Shown here piece after piece: positions 6,059-33,722 of a stretch of DNA of 55,761 bases. The DNA lies in the NCBI GenBank assembly GCA_017518185.1, contig JAFWWB010000025.1:1-55761 (forward strand), written 5' to 3'. Under the pieces are notes generated by a model. It was not told the DNA's origin. It did not search any database and worked only from the letters and a program-made list of their open reading frames with translations. The translations under genes and the position numbers were made by a program. The first letter of the stretch is position 1. Every line of letters starts with the position of its first letter. Source of the stretch: Lachnospiraceae bacterium (GTDB lineage Bacteria; Bacillota; Clostridia; Lachnospirales; Lachnospiraceae).

Positions 6059-6109
6059 GAAAAACGGTTGTGCGACAGTGCACCAATCTGAAAAAAGGAG
6101 ATGGGGATC

Positions 6110-14260: not shown

Positions 14261-14262
14261 TT

Positions 14263-15533: not shown

Positions 15534-15562
15534 TTGTATATGGAGTGTTTTTCTGGTATAAT
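15534..15562 (+). promoter_or_regulatory. Promoter of the GNAT / ABC1-kinase / giant-protein operon
   Basis: TTGTAT (15534-15539), 17-bp spacer, consensus TATAAT (15557-15562) preceded by TGG. It lies in the only sizeable gap before an essentially uninterrupted 18-kb gene run. Confidence 0.75.
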
Positions 15563-15596
15563 ATCCGAGTTTTGATAATCAGAATGGGGGATACAT

Positions 15597-16595
15597 ATGA
15601 GGAAACTGACGTCCAGACAGAAGGGCGACCTTTTCTGGGTGAAGTTCAACCGGCTTGAAGCGGATAAAAGGCGGAAGGGCCTGGACCGCAAAGAACGGAT
15701 AGTGGCGACAGGGAGTAAGATCCTTCCGCCTGAGGGAGACTTCGTCTGCCGTGACCTTATGAGCCTTGATGACCCTTTTGAGAAGGAGCGTATCAGCCGG
15801 GCCATACCCGAAAATCTGCTGGAGCAGGTATATTTTGAGGACCTGAAGGCGGTGGCTGTATTTCTCCCCGGAACGGAAGAGGAGCTCTGCGCGGCATACG
15901 TTTTCGGTATACACTACGGCATGATGGAGCTGGTGTGGCTGCATCTCTTCAAAAGGGCATTCACCGTCGAAGAGCGGGCCGCACTTATACGTTATATCAC
16001 AGGATACGAACGTTACCGTTCCGTCTGGAAGCTGAGCGGTGTTTTCAGCGAGATCCATGCTTTCGAGATGAGCGAAAGGATGAAGCAGGTGCTGGAACTG
16101 GCCGGCATGACGGTGGAACGCGGGCGGGACAATATATATGAATTCACACTGTCGGATCTGGCAGGTGCGAAGGAACTGGCAAAGGCTGCGAAGCGGGTGG
16201 AATGCACTGCATTCCGGGACTGTGACGCGGCCCTTTTTGCTGCGCTTGAAGAGGCTATGGCTGCCGATCCCCGTGGAGTGCCTGTGCCCGAAGATATGAC
16301 GGCTGACGGGTATCTGCAGAACATAAGCTGCATCTGCAGGGAGAAGGAGAGCATAAGGGGGGCGCTGTTCATCGATGAATACGGTGGCAGCCTGGTGGTA
16401 AGGCTGGCCTGGACAAAGGATCCCATGGCTCTCGGCGCCATGCTGGGCTTTGCGATACAGGAGGCAGAGAAAGCGTATCTGCCCGATCAGGAGGTGCTGG
16501 TCCCGGTAGTGGTGCCGGGTACGGAGGCCCTGGTGGAGAAGCTGGTGCCCGGCAGCGAGCGCTGGGATTTCATAAGAGCAGGGATGGAATTTTGA
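15597..16595 (+). CDS. Divergent GNAT-family protein, first gene of the giant-protein operon
   Basis: A 332-residue soluble protein. It lacks a clear acetyl-CoA loop (R/Q-x-x-G-x-G/A), but its C-terminal part (GFAIQEAEKAYLPDQEVLV followed by a PG-containing helix) matches the C-terminal module of the other four GNAT-like proteins in this window, whose versions read RKALEKYPEDTELIL and RKALEKYPPETEVLV. I therefore place it in the same tandem-GNAT family, possibly catalytically dead. GGGGG six bases before ATG 15597 fixes the start. The gene lies 22 bp before the ABC1-kinase gene, with which it must be co-transcribed. Confidence 0.6.
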   Translation: MRKLTSRQKGDLFWVKFNRLEADKRRKGLDRKERIVATGSKILPPEGDFVCRDLMSLDDPFEKERISRAIPENLLEQVYFEDLKAVAVFLPGTEEELCAAYVFGIHYGMMELVWLHLFKRAFTVEERAALIRYITGYERYRSVWKLSGVFSEIHAFEMSERMKQVLELAGMTVERGRDNIYEFTLSDLAGAKELAKAAKRVECTAFRDCDAALFAALEEAMAADPRGVPVPEDMTADGYLQNISCICREKESIRGALFIDEYGGSLVVRLAWTKDPMALGAMLGFAIQEAEKAYLPDQEVLVPVVVPGTEALVEKLVPGSERWDFIRAGMEF

Positions 16596-16617
16596 AAGGA
16601 ACCTTAAGGAGGGAAAA

Positions 16618-19600
16618 ATGGGACTTACAGCTAAACAGAAGCTTAATATACTTGAAGGGATGACGATGACGGTCCCCGAGACCCTGACCCAGACAGAGGA
16701 AGAAAGAGAATCCTTTATAAGGCAGGAGCAGACGGTGATCGATATGACCGATGATCTGCTCGACGGTGTTTACACCGGGGAGATCGAGCTTTCTGCGGAT
16801 AAAGTGAATGAATTGGAACTCAGGAAGACCCGGAGCATGGCGCATATCCTGCTGAATTCCCAAAGAGATGGCGGGGACAGTGATGAGATGCTGGAGATAA
16901 AGAAATACGTCGGCACACTGGAGTTTGTGCTTTCATCCCAGGGAACTTTCGAGGTTTATGAGGATGAAAGCAGTGATTTTGCTGAAGAGCTTCATGAAAC
17001 GGATCTGGAACGTATAAGCGTTCAGTATGAAAAGGCCATAGAAGCCTGCAGGAATTATATTGCAGTAAAGAACCCCCGTTTTGCAAAGGGTAAGGCAAGG
17101 CTGAAAGCCGTGAAAAATCTGCTTCAGAGATACGAGACGGAAAAAAAGATCCTGGATGAGAGCATGAAAGAAGGCGTGACGTTTACGGACGAAGATATAT
17201 CGTATATGGACGTTTTCAGGAAAAAGCAGGAGATCACAAAGGCGGGCTTCAATGAGGCCTGGAGCTCGAGCGCCGAGGTTTCCTCTCTCAGTTATGGGGA
17301 CTTTGCATCCATTGCAGGCATGCATGCCGGGGGATATATAAAACTGGATGGCAACACCCTTGCATATACAAAAAACATTTCCGGAAAGAGCAGGTCAAAC
17401 ATGTGTGTCCGCAGGAAGCTGTATGCCCTGTGCCTGAGACAGCTGGGGGAAAGGATCACTCCTGAGCTCGAGACACGTCTTCAGCTCACCCTGGGGCTGG
17501 ATTACGGTGACAGCTCCGTACCTCCCCTTGAAGCCGGAAAACTGAGGGAGGTCATCACGGAAGTGAACCGCTATTCATCGGATCTTGAACAGGTGCTTTC
17601 CGATGAAAATGCGGATGAGGTGGAGAAGGAGACAGCCCGTATGACCAGTGAACTGCTGGGATACGGTGTACGGGAAGCGGAGCGCTCACGTACAACAAAG
17701 GACAGTGCTGCACGTATGACGAGGCAGATAAACATGATAATGAAGAGAGGGAATATGCCTGCCCTTTCACCCGATCAGATGGATAAGCTCATGGGTGGGA
17801 ACATACCTCTTGTCAGGGACAGGATATACTCCGCACTCCGCAGTATAGAGAAGATGACCGGGAATCTCGGCGGATCCGACCCGGCAGCGGTTTTATCGGA
17901 TACCAGGGTGTTCAACAGGATCGCCGCTCTTGCCGTATGGGAAGCTGTGCAGATGGGTGAGGCAGGCCACGCCGTGGCGGAGGTTGAGCTTCAGCGTTAT
18001 ATCATGGAACAGGCCTTCGTAATCTCCGGACAAAAGACCCTGCAGAACTCTTTCAAACGTGTGCATGTGGGAGAACTGGCCGTGGAAGGTTCGGCAGGGC
18101 TTGATGAACTGATAGAGCAGAGAAAGGGAACAGTCGAAGAATGGAAAGGCAGGGATGCTGAGCTGAAGACCGCAGCAGCTGATCTTACGGTACTCTGCGA
18201 CAGCTTCAGGGAGATAAGGGAGCTGGAAATGCTGGCTCTTGAGAGGGGGTTGAAGCCCGGGGAGGCCGGGCATCTTAAGGAACTGGGCGCAAAGGTTCAG
18301 AATATCATCAGGTCCGAAGGCGATAAGATCGCACAAAAGACCGAACCGCCGTTGCTGCTGCTGATCAAAGGGCTTAAGAATACCCGCTTTGCGTTTGGCT
18401 ACGGGGTGATGATGCAGCAGTTCATGAGCGAAGCCGATATTGCGAAAGACTGCACGAGGATAGCCGAAAGCTGTGTGTATAAAGAAGAGAAGAAGAAAGC
18501 ATCTGTAAAGGAGAGGCCTTCTGCCCAGTACTCCGGGTTCGGACAGGCTGAGGCAGCCGTTGCGGAGGTACTTATGCTTCAGCGGCCTCTGGCTGATTAT
18601 ATGGCTTCGGTAAAGACTCAGAAGGAACGCCTTGCCCTTGGAGCATCATTTGGCGCTTTATATCATGTGCTGAAGAATATGGATCCCATGCTGGACAGCA
18701 GGCACACGCTGACCTTCGGCGATAAGACCGCGCTCATCATGCAGAAGAAGGGTAAGCTCTATGTCTCCTTCGGCGGAAATGAAGTGCCAATGGTGCTTCA
18801 GTGCGGAGCACAGACTCTGGCAAAGCGTCTGGAGAGCGATATCTGTTCTGAACCGGAGGTTTACGGAAAAACGGTGGTCAGCGAGATCATAATGGGTCTC
18901 GAAAAGGATGACCCGGCTGTTCCTGCCATGGAGGCCACCCACAGCAGAAAGGTATTGATGGCATACGTAGGAAAGAAGACGGGGCTTAAACTTCCCGAGA
19001 TGAATAACCTGCCTACAGATACGCTGCAGGATGCCGCGAAGCTGCTTTCGGTTTCGGCTGATGCCACCACGGAATATGTTACCAGGCTGCTCAAACAGTA
19101 TTCCTCCAAGGGAGTGCATATCAATTCACAGGAATCCCTGGAGCTTCTCAAAAAGATGCAGAAAGAGGAACTCCATGTGCATATGCCGCCCAGACCCATG
19201 CAGGTGCCTCAGCAGGAGAATACCGCACAGTGGACTGAAGAGGAGAAGAAGGTATTGGATTTCCTGTCGGATCTGGTATATTCATCCGACAGCTGGCAGA
19301 TGGATACTGCCGCCGTACCCGGTATCAGGATGGCCGGAATGCTTGCAAAGCATGTGGGAGCGCTTCTGATCCTGCGAAAGGATCGAAAGATCCTGGATAA
19401 GATGCTGGATAAATTCCCGCCCGGAATGGGAATGGACGGTATGAAGGAAATGCTGGGGAGCGCAATAGGTGGGCTGCTGGAAAAGAAAGAGATCAAAGAG
19501 CAGAGTGATTTTGCGTTGATGTTCGGTCTTCCCATGATGCTCAACAGCCCTGATCTTCAGAAGAATTACCCCGATCTCGTTAAAGAGCTGGTTGAGAGAG

Positions 19601-22305
19601 AGGCTGATATCGATGCCATGGTCCTGACCCAGATGGCAGTGCTGCAGAAGCAGATCAACAAAGCCCTCTTCCCTGATGAGAGCGGGAAGCAGAAAAAGAC
19701 AGAAAAGGAAAAAGATATCCTGGCCGAAGAAGCTGCAAAGGTGAAGGATAAGAATGCTACCGATGATATCATAGAAAAAATGAAGCGTATCAAACAGGGC
19801 AAAGAAGCCCTGGATAAGGTGATAGAAGGTGCAGCCAGCGGTGACAGCGGTCAGGCGGCGTTTGTCAAGACTGTTATGAAGGAATATTTCAGCGGGGTAT
19901 CCCTTATCGACCAGCGTGCCATGCTGGCTGCCGCTTTCAGGAGCGCAAAGCCCTGGAAAGAGCCTCCTGCGGGCACTTCGGAAAAAGAAAGGGAAAAGCT
20001 TTTAAGCAGGAATATGAGCGATTTTCTGGGTGCCGCTCTTAAGGGGGCCGGTCCTCTGCTCCAGAAGATGCTGCAGGGTATGCCGGAAAATTCCCTGTCA
20101 GAGGATTTCAGGGGTGTCATAAAGGATATGAAATCAAGGCTTGCGCCTATTCCCGATGAATTTGTCAAAGCCCAGATGCAGGCCATAGCCAGCCGTTCCG
20201 AAGGCAGGATCACTGACATAGAAGTAAAGAAGTCTCTCGGGGCCGCATCAGTAGGTCAGGCATTTCTGTGTACACTCCACGGACCCGGGATCGCGCCTGA
20301 AGGTAAGGATGTAGTCATAAAGCTTCTGCGCCCGGATGTGACCAACCGCATGATGCGCGAGAAGGATCTTATGCTGAAATGTGCATCCCGGGTCGGTAAG
20401 GGTATGAAAAATACCTATGAAGGACAGCTGCGGCAGATAGAGCAGGAGCTGGATCTGAGTATCGAGGCTAAAAATGTCCAGCTTGGCCGGGTCTATGACG
20501 GCACTTATGATACCTTAAGCTCCATGAAGCTGGATGACCTTGTGGAACCCACTTCCAATGTGATGGTGATAGAGAAGGCTCCCGGAGAGACCGTGGACGG
20601 TTACATGGAGGAGCTTAAGAAGGAATTCATGCAAAAGATAGAGCCGTTCCTTGTGAAGGACAAGGATGGAAAGATCCAGCGTGATGATAGGGGCCGGGTC
20701 AGGATCAATATGGAGGTAGAGGAGCTTCATAAGTATGCCGAGATCAGGACCTGGGTCTGTGAGAAGGGAGAACAGCTGGCCAAAAGGCAGGGTTATGTGG
20801 CTCAGCTGGCTCATGTATGGGTGGAGGAAGGTATCTTCGGAGCAGGATTCTATCATGGTGATCTTCATGCGGGAAACATCATGGTGAATGATGAAAAAGC
20901 AACGGTGATAGATTTCGGAAACTGTACGAAGCTTGCGCCCGAACAGCAGATATGCGTGACCAGGATGGCCGCTTCGGCAGCGGTGGGCGATGCGGAAGGC
21001 TTCCTGAATTCCTTCCATGATCTGCTGGAGAATACCCCGGAGAAAGAATTTGCTGCCAGAAAAGACGCATTTCTGGGAAAACTGAAGATCATAATGTCCC
21101 TGGGCAACGGAGAGGCAGCAGGGCAGCGTATAGCCGCTGCTCTTCTGGAGGCGCAGAAGCTGGGACTGGAGCTCCCTTCTGCCATATCCAACTTCTCATC
21201 ATGCCAGATGAGGCTCCAGAATACGCTGGATGATATGAACAGCGTGCTTGAAGATATGCAGGCGGTCTATACACAGCTGAAGAAGGGCGTCATGAAGGAG
21301 GCAGAGAAGGCTTTCTTTACGGGTTCCATTGTGGAAACCTTCAGCGATATGGTCATTACAGAGATAGCCAACGGCTCTGAAGTGGATGTAGGGCTTAAGA
21401 GGATAAAGAAGTTTATGAGCCGGAAGGATGAAGAGCAGCTATCCCCTGCTAACGATATCCTGTACTCCATAAACGCTCTCATAAGAACCCTGGACGGCGG
21501 TGTGTTTTCGGCAGAGCAGGAGGTATTCAGAAATAAGGAGTTTGCCTGGTATTTCAGCGAAAAGAATCCGGGTCATGAAGAGCTTAAGAAGCACTATGAT
21601 CAGATTGTGACCGGGGGAAAGGCCCTGAGGGAAAAATGCGGGGAAGGCTTATCTAAGGAATCCTTCTTTCACCATATTGTAGGTGATCTCTACAAAGACT
21701 GGTACAATGGTAATGAGATCGGAACAGATGACATCAAAAAATTATATGTTGAAGTCGTAAAGGACAGGGAAGGATCCAGTCTTACCAGATTGATAAACAA
21801 ACTGACATGGGAAGCAAAAGCGGCAGAAGATAAAGAAAAGGCTGCAGCGGAGAGTAAAGAAGAGAGCTCGAAGGAAGCTATAGAGGAGAAGAAGAAAGCG
21901 AAGGAGAAAATAATTGCCGAACTTGAAGCTGCGAAGAAGGAGGAGGAAGAGCTGGTGCTGAAGCTGGAAAAAGAGGCCGAAGACCTCGCTCCGGTGCTCT
22001 TTCCAATGGTGAAGGATCTGTTTGATTCGATAAAGGCATTCCAGAAAGGATATACTCCGGTAGTTGTTACAGAAGTTGAGAAGCTCAGGGAAAGCTTATA
22101 TGCCCATATGACTACCAGGGAACCGGACAGCTTCTTCTACGTGATGGGCGATGTTATCAATACAAACCTGAAGGCTTCCCTGTGCCGGCTTGGGTTCTGG
22201 AAATCAAAGAACTACATGAGCATAATGGTCGGCGAGGACGAAGATAAGGAAAAGTATAAAAAAGCTTCGGAGGAAGAAGCAAAGAAACAGGGGGACCAGG
22301 CATGA
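16618..22305 (+). CDS. Giant protein (1895 aa) with an embedded ABC1/UbiB-type atypical kinase domain
   Basis: The first ~1150 residues are mostly charged, predicted helical and unassigned. An ABC1/ADCK/UbiB kinase-like domain follows with intact signatures: the Ala-rich loop LGAASVGQAF near 1206, the lysine strand VVIKLLRPDV near 1231, the catalytic GFYHGDLHAGNIMV near 1410 and the metal-binding VIDFGN near 1429. The C terminus (~1720-1790) is a Lys/Glu-rich coiled coil. Ordinary UbiB proteins are about 550 residues and membrane-linked in quinone synthesis. Here there is no signal peptide or clear membrane helix, and the size is more than three-fold. AAGGAGG lies before ATG 16618; the last codons overlap the next GNAT gene by 4 bp. 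A kinase or ATPase acting on the neighbouring giant protein or on lipids is possible but unproven. Confidence 0.8.
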   Translation: MGLTAKQKLNILEGMTMTVPETLTQTEEERESFIRQEQTVIDMTDDLLDGVYTGEIELSADKVNELELRKTRSMAHILLNSQRDGGDSDEMLEIKKYVGTLEFVLSSQGTFEVYEDESSDFAEELHETDLERISVQYEKAIEACRNYIAVKNPRFAKGKARLKAVKNLLQRYETEKKILDESMKEGVTFTDEDISYMDVFRKKQEITKAGFNEAWSSSAEVSSLSYGDFASIAGMHAGGYIKLDGNTLAYTKNISGKSRSNMCVRRKLYALCLRQLGERITPELETRLQLTLGLDYGDSSVPPLEAGKLREVITEVNRYSSDLEQVLSDENADEVEKETARMTSELLGYGVREAERSRTTKDSAARMTRQINMIMKRGNMPALSPDQMDKLMGGNIPLVRDRIYSALRSIEKMTGNLGGSDPAAVLSDTRVFNRIAALAVWEAVQMGEAGHAVAEVELQRYIMEQAFVISGQKTLQNSFKRVHVGELAVEGSAGLDELIEQRKGTVEEWKGRDAELKTAAADLTVLCDSFREIRELEMLALERGLKPGEAGHLKELGAKVQNIIRSEGDKIAQKTEPPLLLLIKGLKNTRFAFGYGVMMQQFMSEADIAKDCTRIAESCVYKEEKKKASVKERPSAQYSGFGQAEAAVAEVLMLQRPLADYMASVKTQKERLALGASFGALYHVLKNMDPMLDSRHTLTFGDKTALIMQKKGKLYVSFGGNEVPMVLQCGAQTLAKRLESDICSEPEVYGKTVVSEIIMGLEKDDPAVPAMEATHSRKVLMAYVGKKTGLKLPEMNNLPTDTLQDAAKLLSVSADATTEYVTRLLKQYSSKGVHINSQESLELLKKMQKEELHVHMPPRPMQVPQQENTAQWTEEEKKVLDFLSDLVYSSDSWQMDTAAVPGIRMAGMLAKHVGALLILRKDRKILDKMLDKFPPGMGMDGMKEMLGSAIGGLLEKKEIKEQSDFALMFGLPMMLNSPDLQKNYPDLVKELVEREADIDAMVLTQMAVLQKQINKALFPDESGKQKKTEKEKDILAEEAAKVKDKNATDDIIEKMKRIKQGKEALDKVIEGAASGDSGQAAFVKTVMKEYFSGVSLIDQRAMLAAAFRSAKPWKEPPAGTSEKEREKLLSRNMSDFLGAALKGAGPLLQKMLQGMPENSLSEDFRGVIKDMKSRLAPIPDEFVKAQMQAIASRSEGRITDIEVKKSLGAASVGQAFLCTLHGPGIAPEGKDVVIKLLRPDVTNRMMREKDLMLKCASRVGKGMKNTYEGQLRQIEQELDLSIEAKNVQLGRVYDGTYDTLSSMKLDDLVEPTSNVMVIEKAPGETVDGYMEELKKEFMQKIEPFLVKDKDGKIQRDDRGRVRINMEVEELHKYAEIRTWVCEKGEQLAKRQGYVAQLAHVWVEEGIFGAGFYHGDLHAGNIMVNDEKATVIDFGNCTKLAPEQQICVTRMAASAAVGDAEGFLNSFHDLLENTPEKEFAARKDAFLGKLKIIMSLGNGEAAGQRIAAALLEAQKLGLELPSAISNFSSCQMRLQNTLDDMNSVLEDMQAVYTQLKKGVMKEAEKAFFTGSIVETFSDMVITEIANGSEVDVGLKRIKKFMSRKDEEQLSPANDILYSINALIRTLDGGVFSAEQEVFRNKEFAWYFSEKNPGHEELKKHYDQIVTGGKALREKCGEGLSKESFFHHIVGDLYKDWYNGNEIGTDDIKKLYVEVVKDREGSSLTRLINKLTWEAKAAEDKEKAAAESKEESSKEAIEEKKKAKEKIIAELEAAKKEEEELVLKLEKEAEDLAPVLFPMVKDLFDSIKAFQKGYTPVVVTEVEKLRESLYAHMTTREPDSFFYVMGDVINTNLKASLCRLGFWKSKNYMSIMVGEDEDKEKYKKASEEEAKKQGDQA

Positions 22306-23684: not shown

Positions 23685-23762
23685 AGGAGCTTTTAGGGCT
23701 GACAGAAGAAGCGGAAGCGGTCTGACACCGGGCCGGAGAACAGAGCATAAAGGAGGAAGCAG

Positions 23763-24623
23763 ATGCAGTTCACACTCATCAATGAGAGCAATGAGATCTA
23801 TTTTGACGGCGCCGTTCATGATCACTGGTCGGGCCGAGGCAGCAGGGATATCTTCTTCGGAGCCGTGGATGAAGAAGATGATATGGCGGCAGCAGGGGCT
23901 GTGGCCTGGGAGATGGGCAGCGATGCCTGGACACTGCGCTATATCGGCGTGGAGGAGGAAAGACGGCGTAAGGGGACGGGGGGCTTTCTGCTGGATGAGA
24001 GTGCGGCATACGCGGCAAAACGCGGCGCCGGCTTCCTGACTGCATATCTTTTCGACGATGACGGGCTGAAGAAAAATGAGCCCGCCATGTTTTTTAAGGC
24101 CTGCGGGTTCGAAATAAAGGAGCTCCCGGTGTGGAGGCAGGTGTTCGACCCGGAGGCGCTGTATGCGCTTCAGCCTGTCTATGAGGGAAAGGATGAGGCT
24201 TCGCTTACGATAATAAAAGCCGGCATGGTAAATGATGAGGAGAGGGAAGAGCTTTTTGAACTGGCGGAAAGCCTGGAGAGGGGTGATAACTATCTGGAGC
24301 CTGAAGAAGTGCTTTCACCCTCCAACATATACGGCGGATTGCTGAAAAAGAACGGAAAGCTGGCCGGCTGGCTGGTGGCCGGGCCCTTTGAGGACGGTGT
24401 GAGGCTGTCAAATATAGCAGGGCGTATCGAGAATGTGGCTGACGTAAAGCTTCTGGTGGATCATGCCCTGGACATGATGCAGAAGGAGGGGAATAAGCCG
24501 GCCCATCTCTATGTGGATGTGGCGGGAGAGAGTCTCCGCACGCTTTTCGCAAAGCACTGTGAGAGAGCCGGGATAAAGCCTGAACGTGAAATGACGGCAT
24601 ATATGGGGATAAGGAGGATCTGA
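23763..24623 (+). CDS. GNAT acetyltransferase-like protein
   Basis: 286 residues with an N-terminal GNAT domain: strand WTLRYIGVEEERRRKGTGGF (acetyl-CoA loop RRKGTG at 68-73), followed by a helix and a typical AAKRGAGFLTAYLF strand. A second, degenerate module lies at ~150-286. AAAGGAGG five to six bases before ATG 23763 fixes the start. The 78 bp since the previous gene hold no promoter I can defend. The stop is 2 bp before the start of the 2997-residue protein, so the pair is coupled. Probably modifies a product of the same operon; this is inference from linkage. Confidence 0.75.
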   Translation: MQFTLINESNEIYFDGAVHDHWSGRGSRDIFFGAVDEEDDMAAAGAVAWEMGSDAWTLRYIGVEEERRRKGTGGFLLDESAAYAAKRGAGFLTAYLFDDDGLKKNEPAMFFKACGFEIKELPVWRQVFDPEALYALQPVYEGKDEASLTIIKAGMVNDEEREELFELAESLERGDNYLEPEEVLSPSNIYGGLLKKNGKLAGWLVAGPFEDGVRLSNIAGRIENVADVKLLVDHALDMMQKEGNKPAHLYVDVAGESLRTLFAKHCERAGIKPEREMTAYMGIRRI

Positions 24624-24625
24624 AG

Positions 24626-27600
24626 ATGGAAAGCGAGTCTACATTAAAAAAGGTTTCAAAAAAGTCTTCCGCTATCCCCGACGGCAGCGGAGTACATGCA
24701 GAGTCAAAAAAGGAGAAGAGCCTCCTTGATCTCATGCGTGAGCAGACGGAGACCGGACTTGTAAGCACCGGAATGGAGACGGAGGAAGAGCTTGCCGATC
24801 ATATTGCCGAAACCTACAGCGAACCGGAGTCCCTGCTCCATGAAGAGGAGAACAGGGCCAGATATGAGGCTGCTGTAAGCGCTCTTGACCATTTCGCCGG
24901 GGAGCTGAAAGCCGTTCTGTCGGCACAGCCTGAAAGCGATGAGATCACGGCCTTCAGGCAGTTTGCGGAGGAGCATGTAAGAGAGTTCCGGGAAAGAAAG
25001 ACAAGGCTTGAGGAAAGCCGGCTTGGCTGGAAGCGCCGGGGAGAGGATGAGATAAGAGCCTCGGTGCAGGCAAAAGAGGAGTGGAAGGCAAGGGATAAGG
25101 CAAGGAAAATGGGACTTTCGGAATCCCGCTTTATAACAGTTCTCGAGACAGAAACCGAGATACTTAAGCTCTTTGCCCTGCCTTTTTCGAAAGAGCTTCC
25201 GGAAGGAGTGGAAGCGTCCGTACTGATCAGGCAGATCATGAAGCTCAAGGGCAATGCAATGGCGGAAGCTGCTGCACCGGAGGAAGCGGATTTCGAAGCC
25301 CTTGTGGCGGATGAATGGGTGCGGACCTGCCTTCAGAGGGGAATGCTCCTTAAGAGCGGCTGCCTTGATATGCGCCAGCCGGAGCCGGGGCTTCTTTCCG
25401 TGCCCAGGGAGGTGGCTTCCGTGGCCGACCTCTATATGGACAGGGTGGATGTGCACAGCAGAAAGCTGGTCAACCATGAGGATGAAAAGTCCGACATGGT
25501 AAAGCTTCCGGCATTCCTTCAGACGGAAGGGACCGGAGAGAGCGGGATCACCGAGGATCTCATCGACCGCTACAAGCTCAGCCATAAGAATTTTGTGCTT
25601 ATGAACGCGGGCTTTGATACCGCGCTTATGGGAAGCAGCCATATCGAAAAGCTCCAGAGGGAATACGATGAGCTCATGGTGGAGCTCATCAGCTCCAGGC
25701 CTGTGGATGAGGATCCTGCCATACTGGCAGGATTAAGGAAAAGGTTCGGAGAGGTCCAGCGTGATCTGGAGCTGGCCAGGGATATGGACAAACGTGTATC
25801 AAGCTACAAAAGGAAGCTGCTGAGCCATGGCAGCCGTGTACAGGATATGCTCAGCAGATGCCTCACGGCCTATTTCGCAAAGCGGCAGGAGGTCTTTGAT
25901 TCCATACAGGATGAGGAAGAGAAGAAGCAATACAGACTGGACAGCTACAGGCGTCTGGCAGAGCTGGGCGAGCTGGTGGGAGGCATCAGCTCCATGTTCG
26001 TATCCGCGGTTTATTATCACAGGCCTTTCCTGATAGAGTTTCAGTATCATGGCGGGCTCTATGAGGCGGCTGTGGATAAGCTGCTCACCCTGTCAGAGTC
26101 GATGTTCTCCGGTGAGCAGGATGCGGAACAGATGGGAGATCAGATCGACAGGCTCATAGAGGCTGCCTCCGGTACGGCTCAGATGCTGCTCTCCGAACAG
26201 AAGGAGAGGCATGATACGGACCAGCTCTATTTTGAGAGATACAGGGCTGAGAAGCAGCTGGACGAGGAGGGCTTCACAAGGACCCGGGCCTTTGGCGTAA
26301 AGGTCAAGACCTCGCTTTTACATGATCATCTGGAGAAAGGCGACGGATATAACCTTGAGGAGGATAAGAAGGCGTTTTTTGCGGCTGCGGCGGCTTCGGA
26401 AGAGGCGCAGAAGCAGTTTGATGAAAGAGCTGCAGCCTCCGAAGAACAGGGAGCGCTTACGGATAAAAAACGTCAGGATCTTCTGAAGGAGAAGGCGCAG
26501 CTTGAGGAGGAACAGCGCAGACAGGAAGAGGAACGCCGCGTCCAGGAGGAAGAAAGGCAAAGAAGGGAAAACGAGGCCGCTCAGCTGCAGGATCAGATGG
26601 ACAGGCTGCAGGCAGAGATGGACAGCCTTGTCATAACCGACAGGGAAGAGACTGAGAGGCTTACATCCGAAGAAGAGACGGAGAGACTGACTGAGCGGGA
26701 AGAGCGGACCGTGCAGTTTGATGATATCGCTGCCCTGAGGCAGAGACAGGAGACCGAGGCCCTTGAAAGGGACCGGCGCCATGTTTCGCATATAGAGCTT
26801 ACCAATCTCCATGACAGGAGCCTTAAGGTGCTGGTCCCGAAACATGCGCTTGGAAAGATACAGAGCTTTACCAAAGCCGACGGCACCCGCGTGGAAGGGG
26901 TCGGAAAGGTAAAGGTGTTCGGTGAGCGCATCTTCGGCATAAGCGCTGGAAGGATAAATGAGAGGATAGGGAAGCATGTGGACAGGCTCCTTTCCTCAAA
27001 TGATACGGTAACGGATAAGGAGCTCTGCGAAACGGCGAAGGCAGTGGCCTCTGCCAGCGGGCTTTTCGAGAGGATATCCACCTCGACAAGGAGTGACGGA
27101 AGCCTGAAGGCTCCCGAAAGATCCTCCTTTATGAAGAAGCTGGAGAAGGCACATCTCGCGGCAAACGGTGTATTTGAGGAGACCGGGACCTTCGGTGAGG
27201 TCGGAAAGAAGCTCAATCTGTTCAGACGTCTCAGCAATGCCGGGACAAAGGAAGAGATAGATGCGGTCATCGGGGACATCATAGCCGGAAGGGCAGTTCG
27301 GAGGGGAGAAGGCGAGCTTGAGCTTACTGACCAATATTTTGGACAGTATCCCAATGCCGCAAAGACGATCTGTCTTTATAAGCTGCTGGAAGGTGTGGGA
27401 GCCGGTGTCATAAACGATAGAAAGCTGCAGGAGGAGTTTGACCAGAGGCTCACCGCCGCCAGGAGCAATCTTAAAAAGCTCCGGGATACACTGGTAGCTT
27501 CAAATGATTACAGGTACGCGCTCAGGCGCGGGGAGAAGGCAGCCATAAAGGGGCGGCTCGATCTGGTAAATACGGAGATATCACAGGCCCAGAGCCGTAT

Positions 27601-30600
27601 CATACGTATAGACGGCACGCTTGACCGGCTGAGGGAGAGCAGGGAAGAGCTGGCAGAGCGTATGGCGCAGATGGAGGAAAACGCCCTCAAAAAGAAGGAG
27701 ACTGCCCATATCTCGGCTAATGCCATCAGCGCTGAGGAGCTGTACCAGAGGGATCTGGAAGAATACCGTTTCCTTTACGAAAGGGAACGAAGGCAGAAGC
27801 TGGAGGATGCAAAGGCCGAGATAGCTGAAGGAAAGGCCGCTGCCGCACAGATGAGAAAGGCGGCTCTCGAAAGGCATGAAGGCCATGAGGCCATAAGGAA
27901 TCCGGTGCTTGCCGAGAGGGCCTTCAGCGGCTTCATCGAAAGCGAGATATTAAACCATCCCTGCTTCAGGAATAAGAAGGGCTTTATGGCCTTCTTCAGG
28001 AAGAGTGACGATCCGGAGAGCGCCGATCTCCTTCAGAAGCACAGGGAGCTCATTGAAAGGATCGCCAGGGAACGCATAGCCTATGACAGGCCGGGCGGGA
28101 TAGAGAGCGCAGAGGAGCTGGCAAGGCTTACGCCCGAACAGCTTCAGGCATATGCGGCGGATCTCCGGCGCCGTCTGATGCATATACAGGAGATATATAC
28201 AAAAGAGAAGCTCAGGGATTTCGAAAGACCCGGATTTGCGGAGCGTATACTCCGTTTCCTCATGGAAGGAAGGGGAGAGGACCAGAAGGAGCTTCAGGAA
28301 TATGCTGCCCATCTTGTGGACAGTCAGACGATACTGCGCATGAAGGAAGCTGTCCTTCTGCTGGGCGAGGACTGGAACAGCAGGCGTGTTCATGCGGACC
28401 AGCTTAGGAAGCAGAAGCGCCGTTTTGTGGGAGGGGCCCGTTCCGACAAGCGTTTTAACCGCATGATGGATCTGGACGAGAATGTGGAGGCGGTATGCAG
28501 GACCTACGGGCTTGAGCCTCCCATGAATTATTATTTCGTCACGGCCGAGAACCATAATAACAGAGGAAGGAAGAAAGAACTGACACTTGCGCAGGACAGG
28601 GCGCATTTTGAAGGTTACCTGGACAGATGGCTGGAGACATCCGTCAGGGATCTTACTGATAAGGCCGTCAGGAAAGAGGAAGAGGAGCTGGCGCGCCTCA
28701 GCGATAAAAAAGCCGTGAAAGACCGGAAAGCCGAGGGCAGCAGATACAGGAAAAAGCTGAAGAGCGAGCTTACAAAGATGGTAAACGGCCTGAAGGATAA
28801 ACAGGCCTATCTGGAATGGGGCGTCTATCAGGATTATGCCGCCATCTCCCTGGGAATGGTGGGCGGTACCGTGGGCAAGGTTGCGGTCGATGCCATAGAG
28901 CTGGATCATGATGAGTATATCGCCAGCCTTTCCGTGGCGGCCCAGCGTTTCCACGACAGGAGGCGGCAGGCCCGTTATTCCCTGGTGGGTACATATGACT
29001 ATCTTACGCCGGAGCAGCGTAAGCAGGTGGAAAAGAACCTCGAGTTTTACTACGAGGATTTTGCCGATGCCGAAAAGTTTGAGAGCTTCCTTGCAGATCA
29101 GAAGGAGGCCCTGCACTATCATCCGGAGGTGAGGGAGGCAGCGGAGAGGAAGGATGAGAGGCTTGCCGTGTTCCGCAGCGAATACAGGGCCTATCTGCCT
29201 CTGGTGCCACTGCTCCTGGAAAACGGAAGATTCCTGGAGATACTGCTCACCTGCACGGATGACGAATACGGTGTCTTCCTTCATGAGATGGTGGAGCGCG
29301 GGCACGGCTTCATGAACCTGCTCTCGGGAGAAGGGGTTTATAACGGCCTTATAGACCAGTATATGAAGCAGTATGGTCCTGACATTATAAAGGTCGTGAT
29401 GGGTGAGATGGACCCCCTGCCCGACAGCGCCATAAGGGCCGCTTTCGAAAAGACCTATGATGATATCGTAACTTATGAGGTAGCCGGAAAGAGCATCGAT
29501 GAGATCCTGAAGAAGGAGATAGAGAAGCTCCAGAAGGAACTCCGGCGGGAAAGGAAGCAGGAGGATAAGGGGATACCGGGTGTCCCCAGGATGGATGAAC
29601 TCTCCCTTAAGACCCGGGTGCTCATAATGCACGGCGCAGCTGCGCTGAAGGATGAAAAACGTCTCGCCGTCTACAGGCAGCATGCGGAGGATAATAAGAT
29701 AACCCTGGCGAAGAAGCTTCTTGCCTTTGAGGAAAGAGAGATACCCTATCCGGAAAGGACGGAGGGCGAGAGTGACGAAGCATATGAAGCGTGCCGTAAA
29801 GCCGTAGAAAAAGAGCGGGAGGTCTTCCGCGAAGGCATACGCATGGTGGAGGAGAACTATCTCCTCCAGTTCCCTGAGGATTATGAAGGGGATCTGGATG
29901 AGAGGCTTAAGACCTACCGCGCCAGCCAGAAGATCGAGTATGCGGCAGCCAGGAGGTTCAGCAGGCAGCAGCTTGAATACAGGCAGCTCATGATGACCGT
30001 GGTGAACGAGAAGCAGGAAGGCTTCCGCCTGCTCAATGCCATACGTATAGAAGGAGCAACGCTCCGGGAACAGATGGCCGCCGAACAGAGGCAGGTACCC
30101 GATAAGTACGGAAGGCCCCTTACGGCAGAGAGTCTTCCCGCCTTTCTTGAGGAGGGGAAGACCGCGGACAGGTTCACCCCTTCCTGGTATGCAAAGCGTA
30201 TAGTGGATATGAGGTCGCAGCTGCCGTCCCACGGCGGCCTGAACGGCTTCTATGAGGATGTGGTGAGCCGTATGATATGGCATCTGGGAGAGCCCGGGGA
30301 TACGGCAGTCAGGGAGCTTAAGAAGGACGAGATCCTGCTGACGAACCTCATAACTACCGATAACGCTATCTCGAAATATATAAACGACAACGGCATAGAT
30401 CCGGAGGATGCCGCCCTCTTCAGGACGGGTGCGCTGGAGCTCCTCGGACATTACGCCGCCGGCACCGAGATGGTGGCAAAACAGGATGAGGTCTATGCGG
30501 CCCTTACGGAGTGGCTTAAGAAGGAAAACGGCGGTGAAGAGAGGATACACTATCTCTTAAGTGATAAGGGCAGATATTATGGTACCGGCAGTGACGCGGG

Positions 30601-33600
30601 CGCCGCTGAAAGGACCGACCGCTTTATGATCGGGAACCGTTCCGAATTCGAAGCAAGGCTTGAAAAGAAGCTGGGGAAGAGCAGTCAGCTTTATAAGGAT
30701 TACATGGAGCTTGACGAAACGGAGAGGCTGCTCCTCGGGCATCTCGTTGTGAGCAGGGCAGTGGAGGCTCAAAAGGAAGAGCCTGTATCACTGACACTGC
30801 TCCGTATGGCAAAGGGGACCGCGAAAGAGTTTGAGCAGAAGGGCGGGCTTCCCGCCGATATGGCCGAAAACTATGTGGCCGGCATAGATGAGGGGGTAAT
30901 AAGCCCCGACTACAGCGAGGTGGGCAGGGCTCTCTTCAGGAGCATAGGCATGCATAAGGACAGGCTGAAGGAGGCACTGTCCACCATAGCAGGCTTAAGG
31001 CGGCTGAAACTCACCCATACTCCCATCACCAGGGAGGAGACCCTGGCCATGCTTGAAGCACAGGCCACAAAGGAGCAGGAGACTGCCGCAAAGAATGACG
31101 CCAGAAGGGCGGAGCTGGGAAGCCGCATGAAGACCATGCTGCCGGTGCTCACCGGATGGCGGAAGCATCTTAAGACTGAGAACCCCTTCATGACCAACGA
31201 TGAACGCATCCACCGTTATTACGGGCTGGTGCGTGCATATGTGACGGATATAGATGATTACCTTGCGAATACGGTACGGCCTGCCCATACCGAGGATCCC
31301 GAGGGAGCGCAGCTCTACCGGGAAGTGGAACGCACAAGGGAGCTGTACGGTTTTCTCCAGCTCTACGAAGGACTGCTCCAGCGTGAGGAGGATATACGGG
31401 AGAAGAGGAAGAACGCCGGCTTCTTTGCAAGGCTCTTCCGTCTGGACAGTATCGATCAGAGACAGGTGGATAAGGCCAGGAGCGAATGGCGCACGGAGCT
31501 TCGCAGTGCCGGCAGATGGCACGGCTTCAACTTCCTGGAGAACCAGGATGAGTCGGAAATGCTCCGGTTCCGGGATGAGCTGCAGGCTTCGGTGACCGAG
31601 GCCAACGGAGAGATGATAAGACCCCATGTCATCAATCTCGATGCGGATGAGGAGAGCGGCCTTTATTCAAAGGAGGTCCTCAGGGCAGTGCATGACGTGG
31701 ACCAGATCGTGGCCTCCATGAGTGGGGATCTCATAAGGGGCAATTCCTCCTCCAACATCGCGGCTGATATATTGAACAGGCCCATAAGGGAAAGGCTCTT
31801 CGTCTACTACATGATAGAGCACAGGAAGATGGCCGGCATGAGCGACGGCGATACCGCACTTTCCCAGTACGGATATGTGCCGGATGCAAAGAGCATAGAG
31901 CAGAGCCTCAATGCGCCTGCGTATATGGTAGTGAACCAGGTGGTGACCGGCGTGAGGAAGCTGGGCTTCATACAGAAGAGCCACAGCATCATGACTGCCA
32001 CTGACAACATGGGCTCCGGCTATGTGGACAGGATAGAGACGGGCATACGCATGCTCATGGATCCTCAGGCGAAGCTTTCGGAGAAGCTCTCATCCATAAG
32101 GGAGCAGAGGATGGAGGCCCTGGAGCCTGGAGCCGACAGCGCGCTGGTGAACCGGCAGCAGCGTCTGGAGGAGTTTACCAGGGAGAGCATGGAGCTTCAG
32201 AGGCTCATAGAGATAAGGGACAGCGCCGTGCTGCATAAGGAAGCAAAGGCCAAAGCCGCAGAAGAACAGGCGGCAAAGGTGGAGCGGCTTTTGAACGATA
32301 TGCTGGCTTACGACGCGGAGATAAAGGACGTTTCGAAGCGCTGGGTGAAGAGCGCTCCGGATAGTCAGGAGAGCACTGAAGGAGAAGATGCCTCAAGGGT
32401 CAGGGACGCCCACAGCGTTTCCGAAAGGCCGGATACCTATGTTCCCGATGTCAACGGCGTTGTGAGCGGCAGCCGTAATATCCCCATCGGTGCAAGCAGC
32501 CTGGGGAGGATGATTAGGGAGAACAGGGACGGCATTGACATGCTCCGGGGAGTCAACGTGGAAGCCGCGGACCTTGCATCAGGGGCTTTCAGTTCAGTGG
32601 CCGGAGTCATGGGAGTGGTGAATTTCGTGCTCTCTGTCGTGGACAGCTCCCAGAGAGGTATCGCCGCATCCGTTGCGGGCAGTACGGAACTCCTCAGCAA
32701 TATGGTGCAGTCGGGAAGGAACATAACCCTTGCTGCCAACAGGGCGGGAAATCTTTTTCAACTGGCTGATACCGCCACCCTTGCTGCGGCCACTCAGACA
32801 GCCGGCGTCATAACTTCAAGTATAGCCTTCGCGGCAAACGTTGCGCTGCTCGCGGTGGACCATGCGGCCGAAAAGAAGGCCGAAGAGGCAACCGGAGAAG
32901 CAGCGGAGGAGATCCGGAAGAAGGAGCGTCTGGAGAAAAGGACCGGTAAGAAGACAGTCAAAGGCATACAGGCATTTAACATGCCTGAGCGGACCATTAA
33001 GTCCGAGGATGTGGAAAGGATAGGCGCCATAGTCACGCAGAATCTGGAGGCAAAGAAGGCCAAGGCGGGTATGGACGCCGTCTCCTCAGCCGTTGCTGTA
33101 GCGGCCTACGCCATACCGGGCTTCCTTCCTTTCGGACTGGCTCTTTCCGGAGTGGCTGCCGTCGCCGGTACCATAACCAAGGTCGTGAAGCACCAGAAGA
33201 CCGTGAACTCCGCCATTGACGAGTTCCTGGGACTCGACCGCCATGTCGACAGGCTCATAGAGCTCCTTGGCAGCGGCAGCCTGGGTGAGGATCAGAAGGC
33301 CCTGTTCATGAAGGGAGACGAGATCGACAGGGATTACGTGCTGGAGGAGCTCAGGAAGGAGGCCATGCGGATGATGGGCTTCTCCGGAGTGAACCAGCTC
33401 TTCGAGCATATAACCAGGGGCTATGCTATGCTCATGTACCGGAGTATCTTCATCAAGGATAACGGCGAGCCCATACTCGCTTCCGACGGGAGGGAGATAA
33501 CAAAGAGGAAGCCCTTCAGGGATATGCTCTCAAGGCTCAGTTTCAGCTATCCCGAAACTGCCGATGGTTACGGCAGTCCGTCTGCCGAGATAATGGCCAG

Positions 33601-33619
33601 GGAGCTGCTGGGAGTCTGA
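24626..33619 (+). CDS. Giant helical/coiled-coil protein (2997 aa) of unknown function
   Basis: One uninterrupted 9-kb reading frame with GGAGG eight bases before ATG 24626. No signal peptide. Most of the length is charged and predicted helical. The densest coiled coil is at ~618-720, made of Glu/Gln/Arg runs such as EEQRRQEEERRVQEEERQ. Near the C terminus, in an otherwise polar protein, lie three Ala/Val-rich hydrophobic stretches: ~2654-2671 (GVMGVVNFVLSVV), ~2716-2745 and ~2818-2850 (AYAIPGFLPFGLALSGVAAV). They could insert in a membrane or pack as a helical bundle. No nuclease, protease, glycosidase, repeat-in-toxin or LPXTG motif is evident. Size, coupling to GNAT genes and the hydrophobic C-terminal part recall tape-measure, scaffold or pore-forming effector proteins, but I recognise no family. 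Confidence 0.85.
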   Translation: MESESTLKKVSKKSSAIPDGSGVHAESKKEKSLLDLMREQTETGLVSTGMETEEELADHIAETYSEPESLLHEEENRARYEAAVSALDHFAGELKAVLSAQPESDEITAFRQFAEEHVREFRERKTRLEESRLGWKRRGEDEIRASVQAKEEWKARDKARKMGLSESRFITVLETETEILKLFALPFSKELPEGVEASVLIRQIMKLKGNAMAEAAAPEEADFEALVADEWVRTCLQRGMLLKSGCLDMRQPEPGLLSVPREVASVADLYMDRVDVHSRKLVNHEDEKSDMVKLPAFLQTEGTGESGITEDLIDRYKLSHKNFVLMNAGFDTALMGSSHIEKLQREYDELMVELISSRPVDEDPAILAGLRKRFGEVQRDLELARDMDKRVSSYKRKLLSHGSRVQDMLSRCLTAYFAKRQEVFDSIQDEEEKKQYRLDSYRRLAELGELVGGISSMFVSAVYYHRPFLIEFQYHGGLYEAAVDKLLTLSESMFSGEQDAEQMGDQIDRLIEAASGTAQMLLSEQKERHDTDQLYFERYRAEKQLDEEGFTRTRAFGVKVKTSLLHDHLEKGDGYNLEEDKKAFFAAAAASEEAQKQFDERAAASEEQGALTDKKRQDLLKEKAQLEEEQRRQEEERRVQEEERQRRENEAAQLQDQMDRLQAEMDSLVITDREETERLTSEEETERLTEREERTVQFDDIAALRQRQETEALERDRRHVSHIELTNLHDRSLKVLVPKHALGKIQSFTKADGTRVEGVGKVKVFGERIFGISAGRINERIGKHVDRLLSSNDTVTDKELCETAKAVASASGLFERISTSTRSDGSLKAPERSSFMKKLEKAHLAANGVFEETGTFGEVGKKLNLFRRLSNAGTKEEIDAVIGDIIAGRAVRRGEGELELTDQYFGQYPNAAKTICLYKLLEGVGAGVINDRKLQEEFDQRLTAARSNLKKLRDTLVASNDYRYALRRGEKAAIKGRLDLVNTEISQAQSRIIRIDGTLDRLRESREELAERMAQMEENALKKKETAHISANAISAEELYQRDLEEYRFLYERERRQKLEDAKAEIAEGKAAAAQMRKAALERHEGHEAIRNPVLAERAFSGFIESEILNHPCFRNKKGFMAFFRKSDDPESADLLQKHRELIERIARERIAYDRPGGIESAEELARLTPEQLQAYAADLRRRLMHIQEIYTKEKLRDFERPGFAERILRFLMEGRGEDQKELQEYAAHLVDSQTILRMKEAVLLLGEDWNSRRVHADQLRKQKRRFVGGARSDKRFNRMMDLDENVEAVCRTYGLEPPMNYYFVTAENHNNRGRKKELTLAQDRAHFEGYLDRWLETSVRDLTDKAVRKEEEELARLSDKKAVKDRKAEGSRYRKKLKSELTKMVNGLKDKQAYLEWGVYQDYAAISLGMVGGTVGKVAVDAIELDHDEYIASLSVAAQRFHDRRRQARYSLVGTYDYLTPEQRKQVEKNLEFYYEDFADAEKFESFLADQKEALHYHPEVREAAERKDERLAVFRSEYRAYLPLVPLLLENGRFLEILLTCTDDEYGVFLHEMVERGHGFMNLLSGEGVYNGLIDQYMKQYGPDIIKVVMGEMDPLPDSAIRAAFEKTYDDIVTYEVAGKSIDEILKKEIEKLQKELRRERKQEDKGIPGVPRMDELSLKTRVLIMHGAAALKDEKRLAVYRQHAEDNKITLAKKLLAFEEREIPYPERTEGESDEAYEACRKAVEKEREVFREGIRMVEENYLLQFPEDYEGDLDERLKTYRASQKIEYAAARRFSRQQLEYRQLMMTVVNEKQEGFRLLNAIRIEGATLREQMAAEQRQVPDKYGRPLTAESLPAFLEEGKTADRFTPSWYAKRIVDMRSQLPSHGGLNGFYEDVVSRMIWHLGEPGDTAVRELKKDEILLTNLITTDNAISKYINDNGIDPEDAALFRTGALELLGHYAAGTEMVAKQDEVYAALTEWLKKENGGEERIHYLLSDKGRYYGTGSDAGAAERTDRFMIGNRSEFEARLEKKLGKSSQLYKDYMELDETERLLLGHLVVSRAVEAQKEEPVSLTLLRMAKGTAKEFEQKGGLPADMAENYVAGIDEGVISPDYSEVGRALFRSIGMHKDRLKEALSTIAGLRRLKLTHTPITREETLAMLEAQATKEQETAAKNDARRAELGSRMKTMLPVLTGWRKHLKTENPFMTNDERIHRYYGLVRAYVTDIDDYLANTVRPAHTEDPEGAQLYREVERTRELYGFLQLYEGLLQREEDIREKRKNAGFFARLFRLDSIDQRQVDKARSEWRTELRSAGRWHGFNFLENQDESEMLRFRDELQASVTEANGEMIRPHVINLDADEESGLYSKEVLRAVHDVDQIVASMSGDLIRGNSSSNIAADILNRPIRERLFVYYMIEHRKMAGMSDGDTALSQYGYVPDAKSIEQSLNAPAYMVVNQVVTGVRKLGFIQKSHSIMTATDNMGSGYVDRIETGIRMLMDPQAKLSEKLSSIREQRMEALEPGADSALVNRQQRLEEFTRESMELQRLIEIRDSAVLHKEAKAKAAEEQAAKVERLLNDMLAYDAEIKDVSKRWVKSAPDSQESTEGEDASRVRDAHSVSERPDTYVPDVNGVVSGSRNIPIGASSLGRMIRENRDGIDMLRGVNVEAADLASGAFSSVAGVMGVVNFVLSVVDSSQRGIAASVAGSTELLSNMVQSGRNITLAANRAGNLFQLADTATLAAATQTAGVITSSIAFAANVALLAVDHAAEKKAEEATGEAAEEIRKKERLEKRTGKKTVKGIQAFNMPERTIKSEDVERIGAIVTQNLEAKKAKAGMDAVSSAVAVAAYAIPGFLPFGLALSGVAAVAGTITKVVKHQKTVNSAIDEFLGLDRHVDRLIELLGSGSLGEDQKALFMKGDEIDRDYVLEELRKEAMRMMGFSGVNQLFEHITRGYAMLMYRSIFIKDNGEPILASDGREITKRKPFRDMLSRLSFSYPETADGYGSPSAEIMARELLGV

Positions 33620-33640
33620 TCCGGGGGAGTGAGGAATTCT

Positions 33641-33669
33641 TTGACGATAGATCTGTGAAGTGATATAAT
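33641..33669 (+). promoter_or_regulatory. Promoter of the STAS/partner-switch operon
   Basis: TTGACG (33641-33646), 17-bp spacer, consensus TATAAT (33664-33669), just after the giant gene. It probably starts the second transcription unit running to 37637. Confidence 0.8.
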
Positions 33670-33722
33670 GTTAGTTTGTTAAAATGTTAGCTAAATGTAA
33701 GCTATAAACGGAGGGTACAGAA

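Follow-up and report, generated by a model that had tools for sequence, protein, structure and literature searches.

Giant ABC1 and CMOD proteins with GNAT-fold partners form a repeated gene module in Lachnospiraceae, most likely the load side of contractile injection systems

The described systems closest to the locus reported here are extracellular contractile injection systems (eCIS, such as Afp and PVC) with their cargo, ABC1/UbiB proteins, and the dedicated partners of other large secreted proteins. Very large eCIS cargo is known in the form of Afp18; ABC1/UbiB proteins, of which a KxGQ motif is the family hallmark, usually act in lipid or quinone metabolism; genes of HlyC-type toxin-activating acyltransferases adjoin those of RTX toxins, and Eag and DUF4123 proteins are adaptors of type VI secretion system (T6SS) effectors. 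Our locus is an operon in a 55,761-nt stretch of DNA (“the window”, contig JAFWWB010000025.1) from a Lachnospiraceae bacterium, probably of the rumen, with a genome of 3.3 Mb in 92 contigs (G000). It encodes two giant proteins, one with an ABC1 kinase module (P0002) and one with a C-terminal hydrophobic module (CMOD; P0005), together with GNAT-family partners. Overall, this module is real, repeated and apparently undescribed, and it most likely represents the load side of the Lachnospiraceae contractile injection systems (CIS). In the literature, excerpts of PMC8213781 define eCIS by at least 10 core genes including one eCIS-specific gene (Afp12, 13, 14 or 16) and report them as depleted from mammalian and avian microbiomes; excerpts of PMC11297309 describe a hydrophilic N-terminal leader for eCIS cargo, and other CIS are described in PMC10066040, PMC12237407 and PMC12923769 (likewise excerpts).

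The genes of the operon and the parts of their products are:

15534..15562, + strand: candidate promoter with extended -10, TTGTAT-17-TATAAT with TGG before TATAAT, read by eye
15597..16595, + strand: P0001, 332 aa, degenerate GNAT-family partner (family-profile match, no Pfam match, no strict acetyl-CoA motif)
16618..22305, + strand: P0002, 1895-aa ABC1 giant (Pfam ABC1, E 7.5e-18)
16708..17127, + strand: N domain of P0002, residues ~31-170
18595..19497, + strand: D domain of P0002, residues 660-960
19783..21267, + strand: ABC1/UbiB kinase module of P0002, residues 1056-1550, HGDLHAGN and DFGN kept, KMLQG in place of KxGQ
22302..23684, + strand: P0003, 460-aa GNAT-fold partner adjoining the ABC1 giant, motif RIRGKG kept
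23763..24623, + strand: P0004, GNAT-fold partner of 286 aa encoded immediately before the CMOD giant, motif RRKGTG retained
24626..33619, + strand: P0005, 2997-aa CMOD giant
31517..33616, + strand: CMOD, the C-terminal ~700-aa hydrophobic module of P0005, with three transmembrane (TM)-like segments

All five open reading frames (ORFs; greedy longest-ORF calls, not those of a trained gene finder) are present, intact and on the + strand. The second ORF starts 22 bp after the first and overlaps the third by 4 bp, and gaps of 78 and 2 bp precede the fourth and the fifth, which bears out the tightly coupled operon of the original prediction, made from the sequence of the window. Given their great length, and homologs in which the frames stay long as well, they are not chance. 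The promoter proposed at its head is plausible by eye (15534-15562), but its first hexamer matches the consensus at 3/6 positions and the site stays below the threshold of the consensus scan and so is absent from its list. An 866-aa antisense ORF within P0005 was rejected as a gene because of its position.

The main context, absent from the original prediction, is a CIS encoded elsewhere in the same genome. On contig C50, CIS genes (31603-55542, with the sheath gene at 40338-42041 and the only Pfam sheath match of the genome at 40701-41153) lie beside an array of ABC1-giant genes (55812-74600), and the same CIS operon occurs near CMOD genes in two other genomes (G907 and G074). By Pfam, the operon of G907 has the machine parts of eCIS such as Afp and PVC, i.e., sheath, tube, CIS_tube, PAAR-like DUF4280, spike OB, gp25, two Baseplate_J proteins and an AAA ATPase, as well as Tail_P2_I and STAS proteins and a hub match below cut-off. 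Sheath and tube are represented there by PF04984, PF17482 and PF06841 (the sheath also on C50), and baseplate and spike by PF04965, PF04865 (twice), PF04717 and DUF4280. Regarding eCIS-specific genes, the operon has the second Baseplate_J protein and an AAA protein of 814 aa, and no equivalents of Afp13, 14 or 16 were identified with the general models of Pfam; phage head or packaging genes were not found among the CIS-operon proteins scanned by Pfam, which cover part of the operon. The operon also contains a conserved protein of ~617 aa (C50 53689-55542, with relatives in G907, G074 and L068) that begins ..YPFERNRYYPGKMLT.., had no Pfam match in the two copies scanned, and adjoins 281-aa and 813-aa proteins with TM-like segments.

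The association of the giants with CIS is well supported. Among 144 relatives (own genome included), the single sequence of P0002, used instead of the giant profile A1 and with the best candidates per genome scored, matched 11 genomes, eight of which carry ABC1 giants (left out were G031, with the N domain only, and G115 and G129, with plain UbiB-like frames of ~520 aa). A sheath profile was positive in 21 of the 144 genomes, which included all eight with ABC1 giants vs. 13 of the 136 others (Fisher p 5e-8), 8/9 with a strong CMOD match (E < 1e-15; p 4e-7), and 13/14 with a strong match to either giant (p 3e-12). The same holds within the genus of our genome (35 genomes, G000-G034), where the sheath is found in 7/7 ABC1-giant (p 1e-4) and 6/6 CMOD genomes (p 6e-4) vs. 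12/35 overall, all of these tests taking related genomes as independent. Another 49 ABC1-giant genomes include 41 with a sheath. Of the 35 genomes with both CMOD and sheath, 11 have the two on the same contig and no more than 45 kb apart, and two of these 11 are isolates by record title (Butyrivibrio sp. FCS014 and Lachnospiraceae XBB2008), so that mis-binning alone is not the cause of the linkage. A position near the CIS operon, as for cargo, thus holds for paralogs of the giants, not for the copy in the window.

A second injection machine comes into play outside the Lachnospiraceae. The genomes of Succinatimonas hippei and of an Anaerobiospirillum metagenome-assembled genome (MAG) carry ABC1 giants, no sheath match, and SctR above its curated cut-off, which none of 14 control genomes reached. 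Members of a single protein family are thus found alongside two injection machines that are unrelated to each other. In the MAG, the giant shares a 10.7-kb contig with SctR, SctS and SctT, which score above cut-off, and with SctQ and SctP, which stay below it; in the S. hippei isolate, homologs of all five Sct genes (SctR by profile, the others by comparison with L139) are on another contig than the giant. The giants of these two gammaproteobacteria nest with Lachnospiraceae giants in a clade of nine (support 0.885), which suggests a transfer of the ABC1 giant. The type III genes of S. hippei, a commensal (L278, G924:C55), are split over both strands.

Compared to described ABC1/UbiB proteins (COQ8A/ADCK3, UbiB), P0002 is alike in its core and different in its setting. 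As had been proposed, it is ABC1/UbiB-like: its Pfam ABC1 score is 65 bits for a cut-off of 22.9, the model of residues 640-1561 is confident (pLDDT 86.8, pTM 0.87), and the predicted fold of the kinase module best matches COQ8A/ADCK3 (Foldseek E 6.6e-8 to 4.6e-7). The catalytic motifs H[GA]DLHxGN and D[FY]GN are kept across an alignment of 16 giants (A1), whereas KxGQ is altered to K-x-[LMFI]-Q-G in all 16, and the kinase module is embedded in giants (mostly 1000-2700 aa), where an N domain, a variable middle and a D domain precede it and a C-terminal part follows. These flanking parts belong mostly to kinase-bearing proteins in the fetched loci (65 of 80 proteins for the N domain, 85 of 92 matches for the D domain and 64 of 66 for the C-terminal part, four repeated contigs being left out). 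P0002 had chance-level or no matches to sequences of solved structures and none to plasmid records, and the ABC1 module gave three weak partial matches to viral contigs and nothing more.

Beyond the relatives, a scan of 84,980 species genomes with the ABC1 giant yielded 271 related stretches, 78 of which were studied (by record name, in the 49 further genomes and in four already among the relatives). All but two are named as Lachnospiraceae, Butyrivibrio, Eubacterium, Clostridiales or “bacterium”, often with a title that mentions rumen or ruminants, and the two others are the Succinivibrionaceae above. The ABC1-giant profile was positive in 10/397 genomes of a family sample and 2/398 of a phylum sample, both from the same family (own genome included). 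Our own genome has further ABC1 giants on contigs C50 and C51. The operon belongs to a family of repeated modules, with copies chiefly in Lachnospiraceae. On C50 (60810-65437), one ABC1 giant is split into N and D domains (612 aa) followed by a kinase part (930 aa) with a 4-bp overlap. Related kinase-less giants of ~3360 aa share contigs with ABC1 giants (G029C76 27170-37267 and G007C116 75598-85686), and one has the N domain.

The second giant, P0005, has the hydrophobic C-terminal part that had been described, with TM-like segments that begin at residues 2650, 2725 and 2818, but no Pfam family beyond a chance-level match (E 0.14), nothing in PHROGs and NCBIfam except one weak PHROG of unknown function, and chance-level or no matches to sequences of solved structures. 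At full length, it was matched in one of the 144 genomes besides its own. CMOD is wider, with 13/144 genomes (9 of them strong) and 30 of the 49 further ABC1-giant genomes, and it was not found in phage records. The 25 CMOD genes counted below, i.e., those in fetched loci, of which 20 were hand-picked from match lists, encode 20 proteins of 880-1514 aa and five of 2538-2997 aa. A plasmid or phage element was rejected as the source of the module, as no close relatives were seen between P0002 and plasmids, CMOD and phages, or the ABC1 module and viral contigs (a different query each, and non-exhaustive).

Both kinds of giants tend to have a GNAT-family gene next to them. From the three GNATs originally proposed, P0003 (21.2 bits, cut-off 20.7) and P0004 (30.2 bits) stand by Pfam and have an acetyl-CoA motif, whereas P0001, like the product of 35106-35972 further downstream, has neither and is related via a family profile that we built from the neighbourhoods of giants. 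With this profile, and after five repeat contigs were dropped (L066, L083, L094, L099 and L100), a GNAT-family gene was found directly upstream on the same strand of 19/25 CMOD genes (21/25 on either side), and directly downstream of 50/97 and upstream of 23/97 ABC1 giants, for which 7 and 17 of the neighbour positions, respectively, fall beyond the contig end. A strict R/QxxGxG/A motif within residues 31-140 was kept in 12/19 (CMOD upstream), 24/50 (ABC1 downstream) and 13/23 (ABC1 upstream) of these partners, and absent from 43 of all 92, with the caveat that this crude pattern misses some active GNATs. This speaks for a role in binding or loading as much as for catalysis. By analogy, a partner gene directly beside a large effector recalls HlyC-type acyltransferases and the T6SS adaptors Eag and DUF4123, from which the giants' partners differ in that many have no acetyl-CoA motif by the pattern above.

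CMOD genes frequently have a third companion, a small protein of ~180 aa encoded directly beside 21/25 of them (18/25 have both this gene and a GNAT-family gene). Its predicted fold matches YbjN-type proteins and the class I type III chaperones ExsC, SigE, CesT and SpcU (E 1.6e-3 to 0.1), and its secondary structure fits alpha-beta(3)-alpha-beta(2)-alpha (four sequences, models poor for 3/5, best E 1.6e-3). The small protein may thus resemble these chaperones in fold, and its gene likewise adjoins one for a large protein; it differs from them in that its family profile has no sequence match to solved chaperones and that the Lachnospiraceae carriers have CIS.

If the giants are eCIS-like cargo, they would be cargo of a new kind. 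As in eCIS-associated toxins (EATs), their N-terminus is hydrophilic: over the first 50 residues, mean Kyte-Doolittle values are -1.12 (79 ABC1) and -1.17 (25 CMOD) vs. -0.38 (301 background proteins), and over whole proteins -0.67, -0.60 and -0.37, in a comparison that is weak, non-specific and distinct from the published leader score. Very large size, too, has its counterpart in Afp18. By contrast, the giants belong to other families (ABC1, CMOD), have GNAT-fold partners, occupy several loci per genome, and show no Pfam match to DUF4157 in any of P0001-P0005; their carriers are mostly gut or rumen Lachnospiraceae, from habitats where eCIS are reported as depleted in mammals and birds (PMC8213781, in excerpts). 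As originally stated, no described system of such composition appeared among the literature matches listed. The matches listed for giant ABC1 proteins, UbiB effectors, CIS cargo and adaptors, and for Succinatimonas with type III secretion, held nothing on the module, which is not proof of novelty; no paper pairing a CIS with Butyrivibrio was found in a search outside which most subscription papers and preprints lie, and none on rumen CIS by title and start of abstract.

We judge it somewhat probable that the locus is a CIS cargo module, whose giants are injected with dedicated partners (GNAT-fold proteins for both giants, a chaperone for CMOD). This view is drawn from the giants being seemingly dispensable for CIS, diverse and multi-copy, from their occurrence with two unrelated injection machines, and from the chaperone-fold neighbour (of one kind) and hydrophilic leaders; from these, we infer injection as loads, partners that aid loading, and action in the target. 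P0002 and P0005 would be two kinds of very large load, made in the cytoplasm of the producer and carried into a target cell by a phage-tail-like syringe encoded on another contig. A GNAT-fold partner would keep each load loadable (P0003 or P0001 for P0002, P0004 for P0005), most CMOD loads would in addition be accompanied by a small chaperone with the fold of YbjN and type III chaperones, and nearby AAA+ ATPases and STAS/partner-switch proteins may load and switch the system. Once in the target, the ABC1 module could work as a kinase or ATPase dependent on ATP, and CMOD could insert its hydrophobic segments into a membrane.

A bolder version, which we hold as possible rather than probable, is that rumen and gut commensals inject proteins of 900-3000 aa, including an ABC1/UbiB-type kinase, by a contractile syringe, that the GNAT-fold protein is an effector-specific adaptor that has often lost its enzyme motif, and that the ABC1 giant was exchanged between bacteria with contractile syringes and bacteria with type III injectisomes. 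Such an exchange would point to eukaryotic targets (rumen ciliates, gut cells), and an effector family common to CIS and type III secretion would provide a handle on which cells the carriers act upon. Should the giants be cargo, the Lachnospiraceae of rumen and gut would have a large repertoire of injected proteins that has apparently gone unrecognised; the CIS of gut commensals would gain a testable function where eCIS are reported as depleted, the GNAT fold would be a new adaptor class, and an injected ABC1 kinase would be, as far as we know, a new use of the ABC1 fold.

Several observations weigh against giants as cargo. For the window itself, the module is unlinked to a CIS in the assembly, no CIS core gene is found among the 34 of its proteins scanned by Pfam or by comparison with CIS regions, and no gene of the small-protein family was found beside P0005. 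The giants, of up to 3366 aa, are very large for loads. Co-occurrence is less tight when all 13 CMOD genomes are counted (sheath in 8/13, with the four weakest matches, G006, G010, G018 and G033, having none), eight of the 49 further ABC1-giant genomes have neither this sheath type nor PF17482 (six being Lachnospiraceae or close to them), and the p-values above treat kin as independent. The chaperone assignment is fragile: in Pfam, one of three small proteins has weak matches to YbjN and DUF2170 that stay below cut-off, and the two others have none; five models from a four-sequence alignment reached mean pLDDT of 78, 74, 55, 39 and 35, only two of them confident; and the fold matches never reach E 0.001, with YbjN-type proteins also occurring outside secretion. 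Mirror-tree correlations between giants and partners (r 0.67 and 0.56) are confounded by the species tree. As for type III secretion, it involves two genomes only, with linkage in one, and in the clade around their giants 3/6 other genomes have no sheath, nor any CIS gene recognised by eye beside the giants. Lachnospiraceae carriers may be sheath-less because of incomplete assemblies, or because of another role or machine.

The main alternative places the giants in the life cycle of the CIS within the producer. They would assemble, anchor or fire the syringe in the role of scaffolds, membrane platforms or regulators, and the ABC1 kinase and the GNATs would be modifying enzymes. Linkage to and co-occurrence with CIS would be equally expected, genes of regulatory appearance surround giants (STAS, HATPase, MCP and cyclase), CMOD has TM-like segments, and contraction of the Streptomyces CIS requires a membrane protein outside the particle (PMC12237407, excerpt). 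Yet 8 of the 21 sheath-bearing genomes have neither giant at the thresholds used, a count that tells against a general cargo role as well but from which the giants seem dispensable for having a CIS; this, with several divergent giants at several loci in our genome and others, and with ABC1 giants in two gammaproteobacteria that have type III genes and no detected sheath, makes us consider such a role unlikely, if well worth keeping in mind. Still less expected is an independent intracellular system (e.g., lipid or isoprenoid handling by ABC1/UbiB, or phage defence) that happens to be common in the same lineages as CIS. The usual metabolic role of ABC1/UbiB proteins, the eight ABC1-giant genomes without detectable sheath (several with no CIS gene recognised by eye beside the giant) and a defence gene in the window (RT_UG26) would fit this idea; it is made improbable by co-occurrence within the genus (7/7 vs. 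12/35), by giants adjoining CIS operons in our genome and elsewhere, by the absence of PADLOC matches in P0001-P0004, the proteins scanned, and by the plasmid, phage and viral searches above.

The original prediction was of one five-gene system in which the 2997-aa protein would be modified or activated by the kinase and the acetyltransferases. Tight coupling in the window speaks for such a system, and so does a row in G899 that consists of a GNAT gene, a CMOD giant, the small protein, an ABC1 giant and a GNAT gene. A giant with a GNAT-family gene was recovered as a recurring unit (mostly upstream of CMOD, downstream or upstream of ABC1), but not five genes as one self-contained system: 6/9 strong-CMOD genomes have no ABC1 giant and 5/8 ABC1-giant genomes no strong CMOD, so that both giants occur in only 3 of the 14 genomes (among 144, strong matches) having either, and 2/5 GNAT-family proteins in 15597-36841 are without the strict acetyl-CoA motif. 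In G034, the 40 kb fetched of contig C13 contain the closest relative of P0005 and no ABC1 giant, and the same genome has an ABC1 giant on C14 with another CMOD gene ~15 kb from it. As ABC1 giant plus GNAT and CMOD giant plus GNAT are separable, we rejected a self-contained five-gene machine, and a joint one seems to us very improbable.

The interval 15534..33619 is too narrow for the module, with related genes downstream at 33723-36841 and 37766-38944. The features around the operon are:

6101..6535, + strand: 144-aa YbjN-domain protein (PF10722, E 4.2e-5, 24.2 bits, cut-off 22), overlapping the next gene by 8 bp
6528..9980, + strand: protein of 1150 aa that combines two AAA+ domains with Peptidase_M41; related AAA proteins are encoded close to giants and within CIS regions
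33641..33669, + strand: promoter-like site before the STAS gene, TTGACG-17-TATAAT, 11/12 consensus positions
33723..34022, + strand: STAS anti-sigma-antagonist-like protein, 99 aa (TIGR00377, E 1.7e-20; PF01740)
34037..35101, + strand: 354-aa membrane protein, no Pfam match; homolog in the CIS-linked island of G074 (E 5e-33)
35106..35972, + strand: degenerate GNAT-family partner (family profile); homolog in the CIS-linked island of G074 (E 1e-66)
35969..36841, + strand: GNAT-family partner with motif RYEGLG intact; G907 has a homolog in its CIS-linked island (E 2e-24)
37766..38944, + strand: 392-aa kinase-less relative of the N- and C-terminal parts of ABC1 giants (jackhmmer, 13 other matches; no Pfam match)

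The CIS-linked islands of G074 or G907 contain homologs of six window genes, those starting at 22302, 23763, 24626, 34037, 35106 and 35969 (E 9e-7 to 1e-66), and a STAS gene is also part of the CIS operon of G907 (PF01740 in both). The site at 33641..33669 is the best of 11 found in the promoter scan, for 10.9 expected in shuffles. The membrane protein at 34037..35101 may, as a reading only, have a degenerate GGDEF-like C-terminus; the FAM8 profile mixes proteins of this type with PP2C-type proteins, and nothing was counted on it. Near giants at L066 (19992-20748) and L197 (5346-7034), we observed a HATPase_c_2 and STAS pair and, by eye, a HAMP-PP2C protein, which are pieces of a partner-switching regulator. 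Upstream, the YbjN gene (6101-6535), which matches the small-protein family beside CMOD with only E 0.11, and the double AAA+ gene (6528-9980) are on the same strand several kb away, and their membership in the module is uncertain. Two candidates were rejected: the MoxR-DUF58 genes at 12129-15513 as a module part (no homologs in 17 other contigs compared), and a 201-aa ORF at 37032-37637 as the missing small chaperone (no jackhmmer homolog).

The remainder of the window holds genes of other kinds. A reverse transcriptase at 668-1867 gives a nearly full-length match to the defence-associated RT_UG26 model (E 2.6e-151), an AAA-ATPase-like protein is encoded at 2395-3960 on the - strand (AAA_35, 30.6 bits, cut-off 27), and a PAS-GGDEF diguanylate cyclase at 10299-12050 (- strand) has relatives on several other giant-bearing contigs. 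At 42728-52193 (- strand) lies a Tad-type pilus cluster (T2SSE, T2SSF, TadE and DUF5702, with weak TadZ-like, second T2SSF and Peptidase_A24 matches) that ends in a DUF6382-FHA protein. An Rfam scan of 10-43 kb found one tRNA and nothing else; a tRNA gene (39004-39076) lies upstream of the gene at 39237-42725, whose 1162-aa product has a weak TPR match at its N-terminus and a weak SpoVK-like AAA match at its C-terminus, as well as a long acidic region rich in Tyr and Gly.

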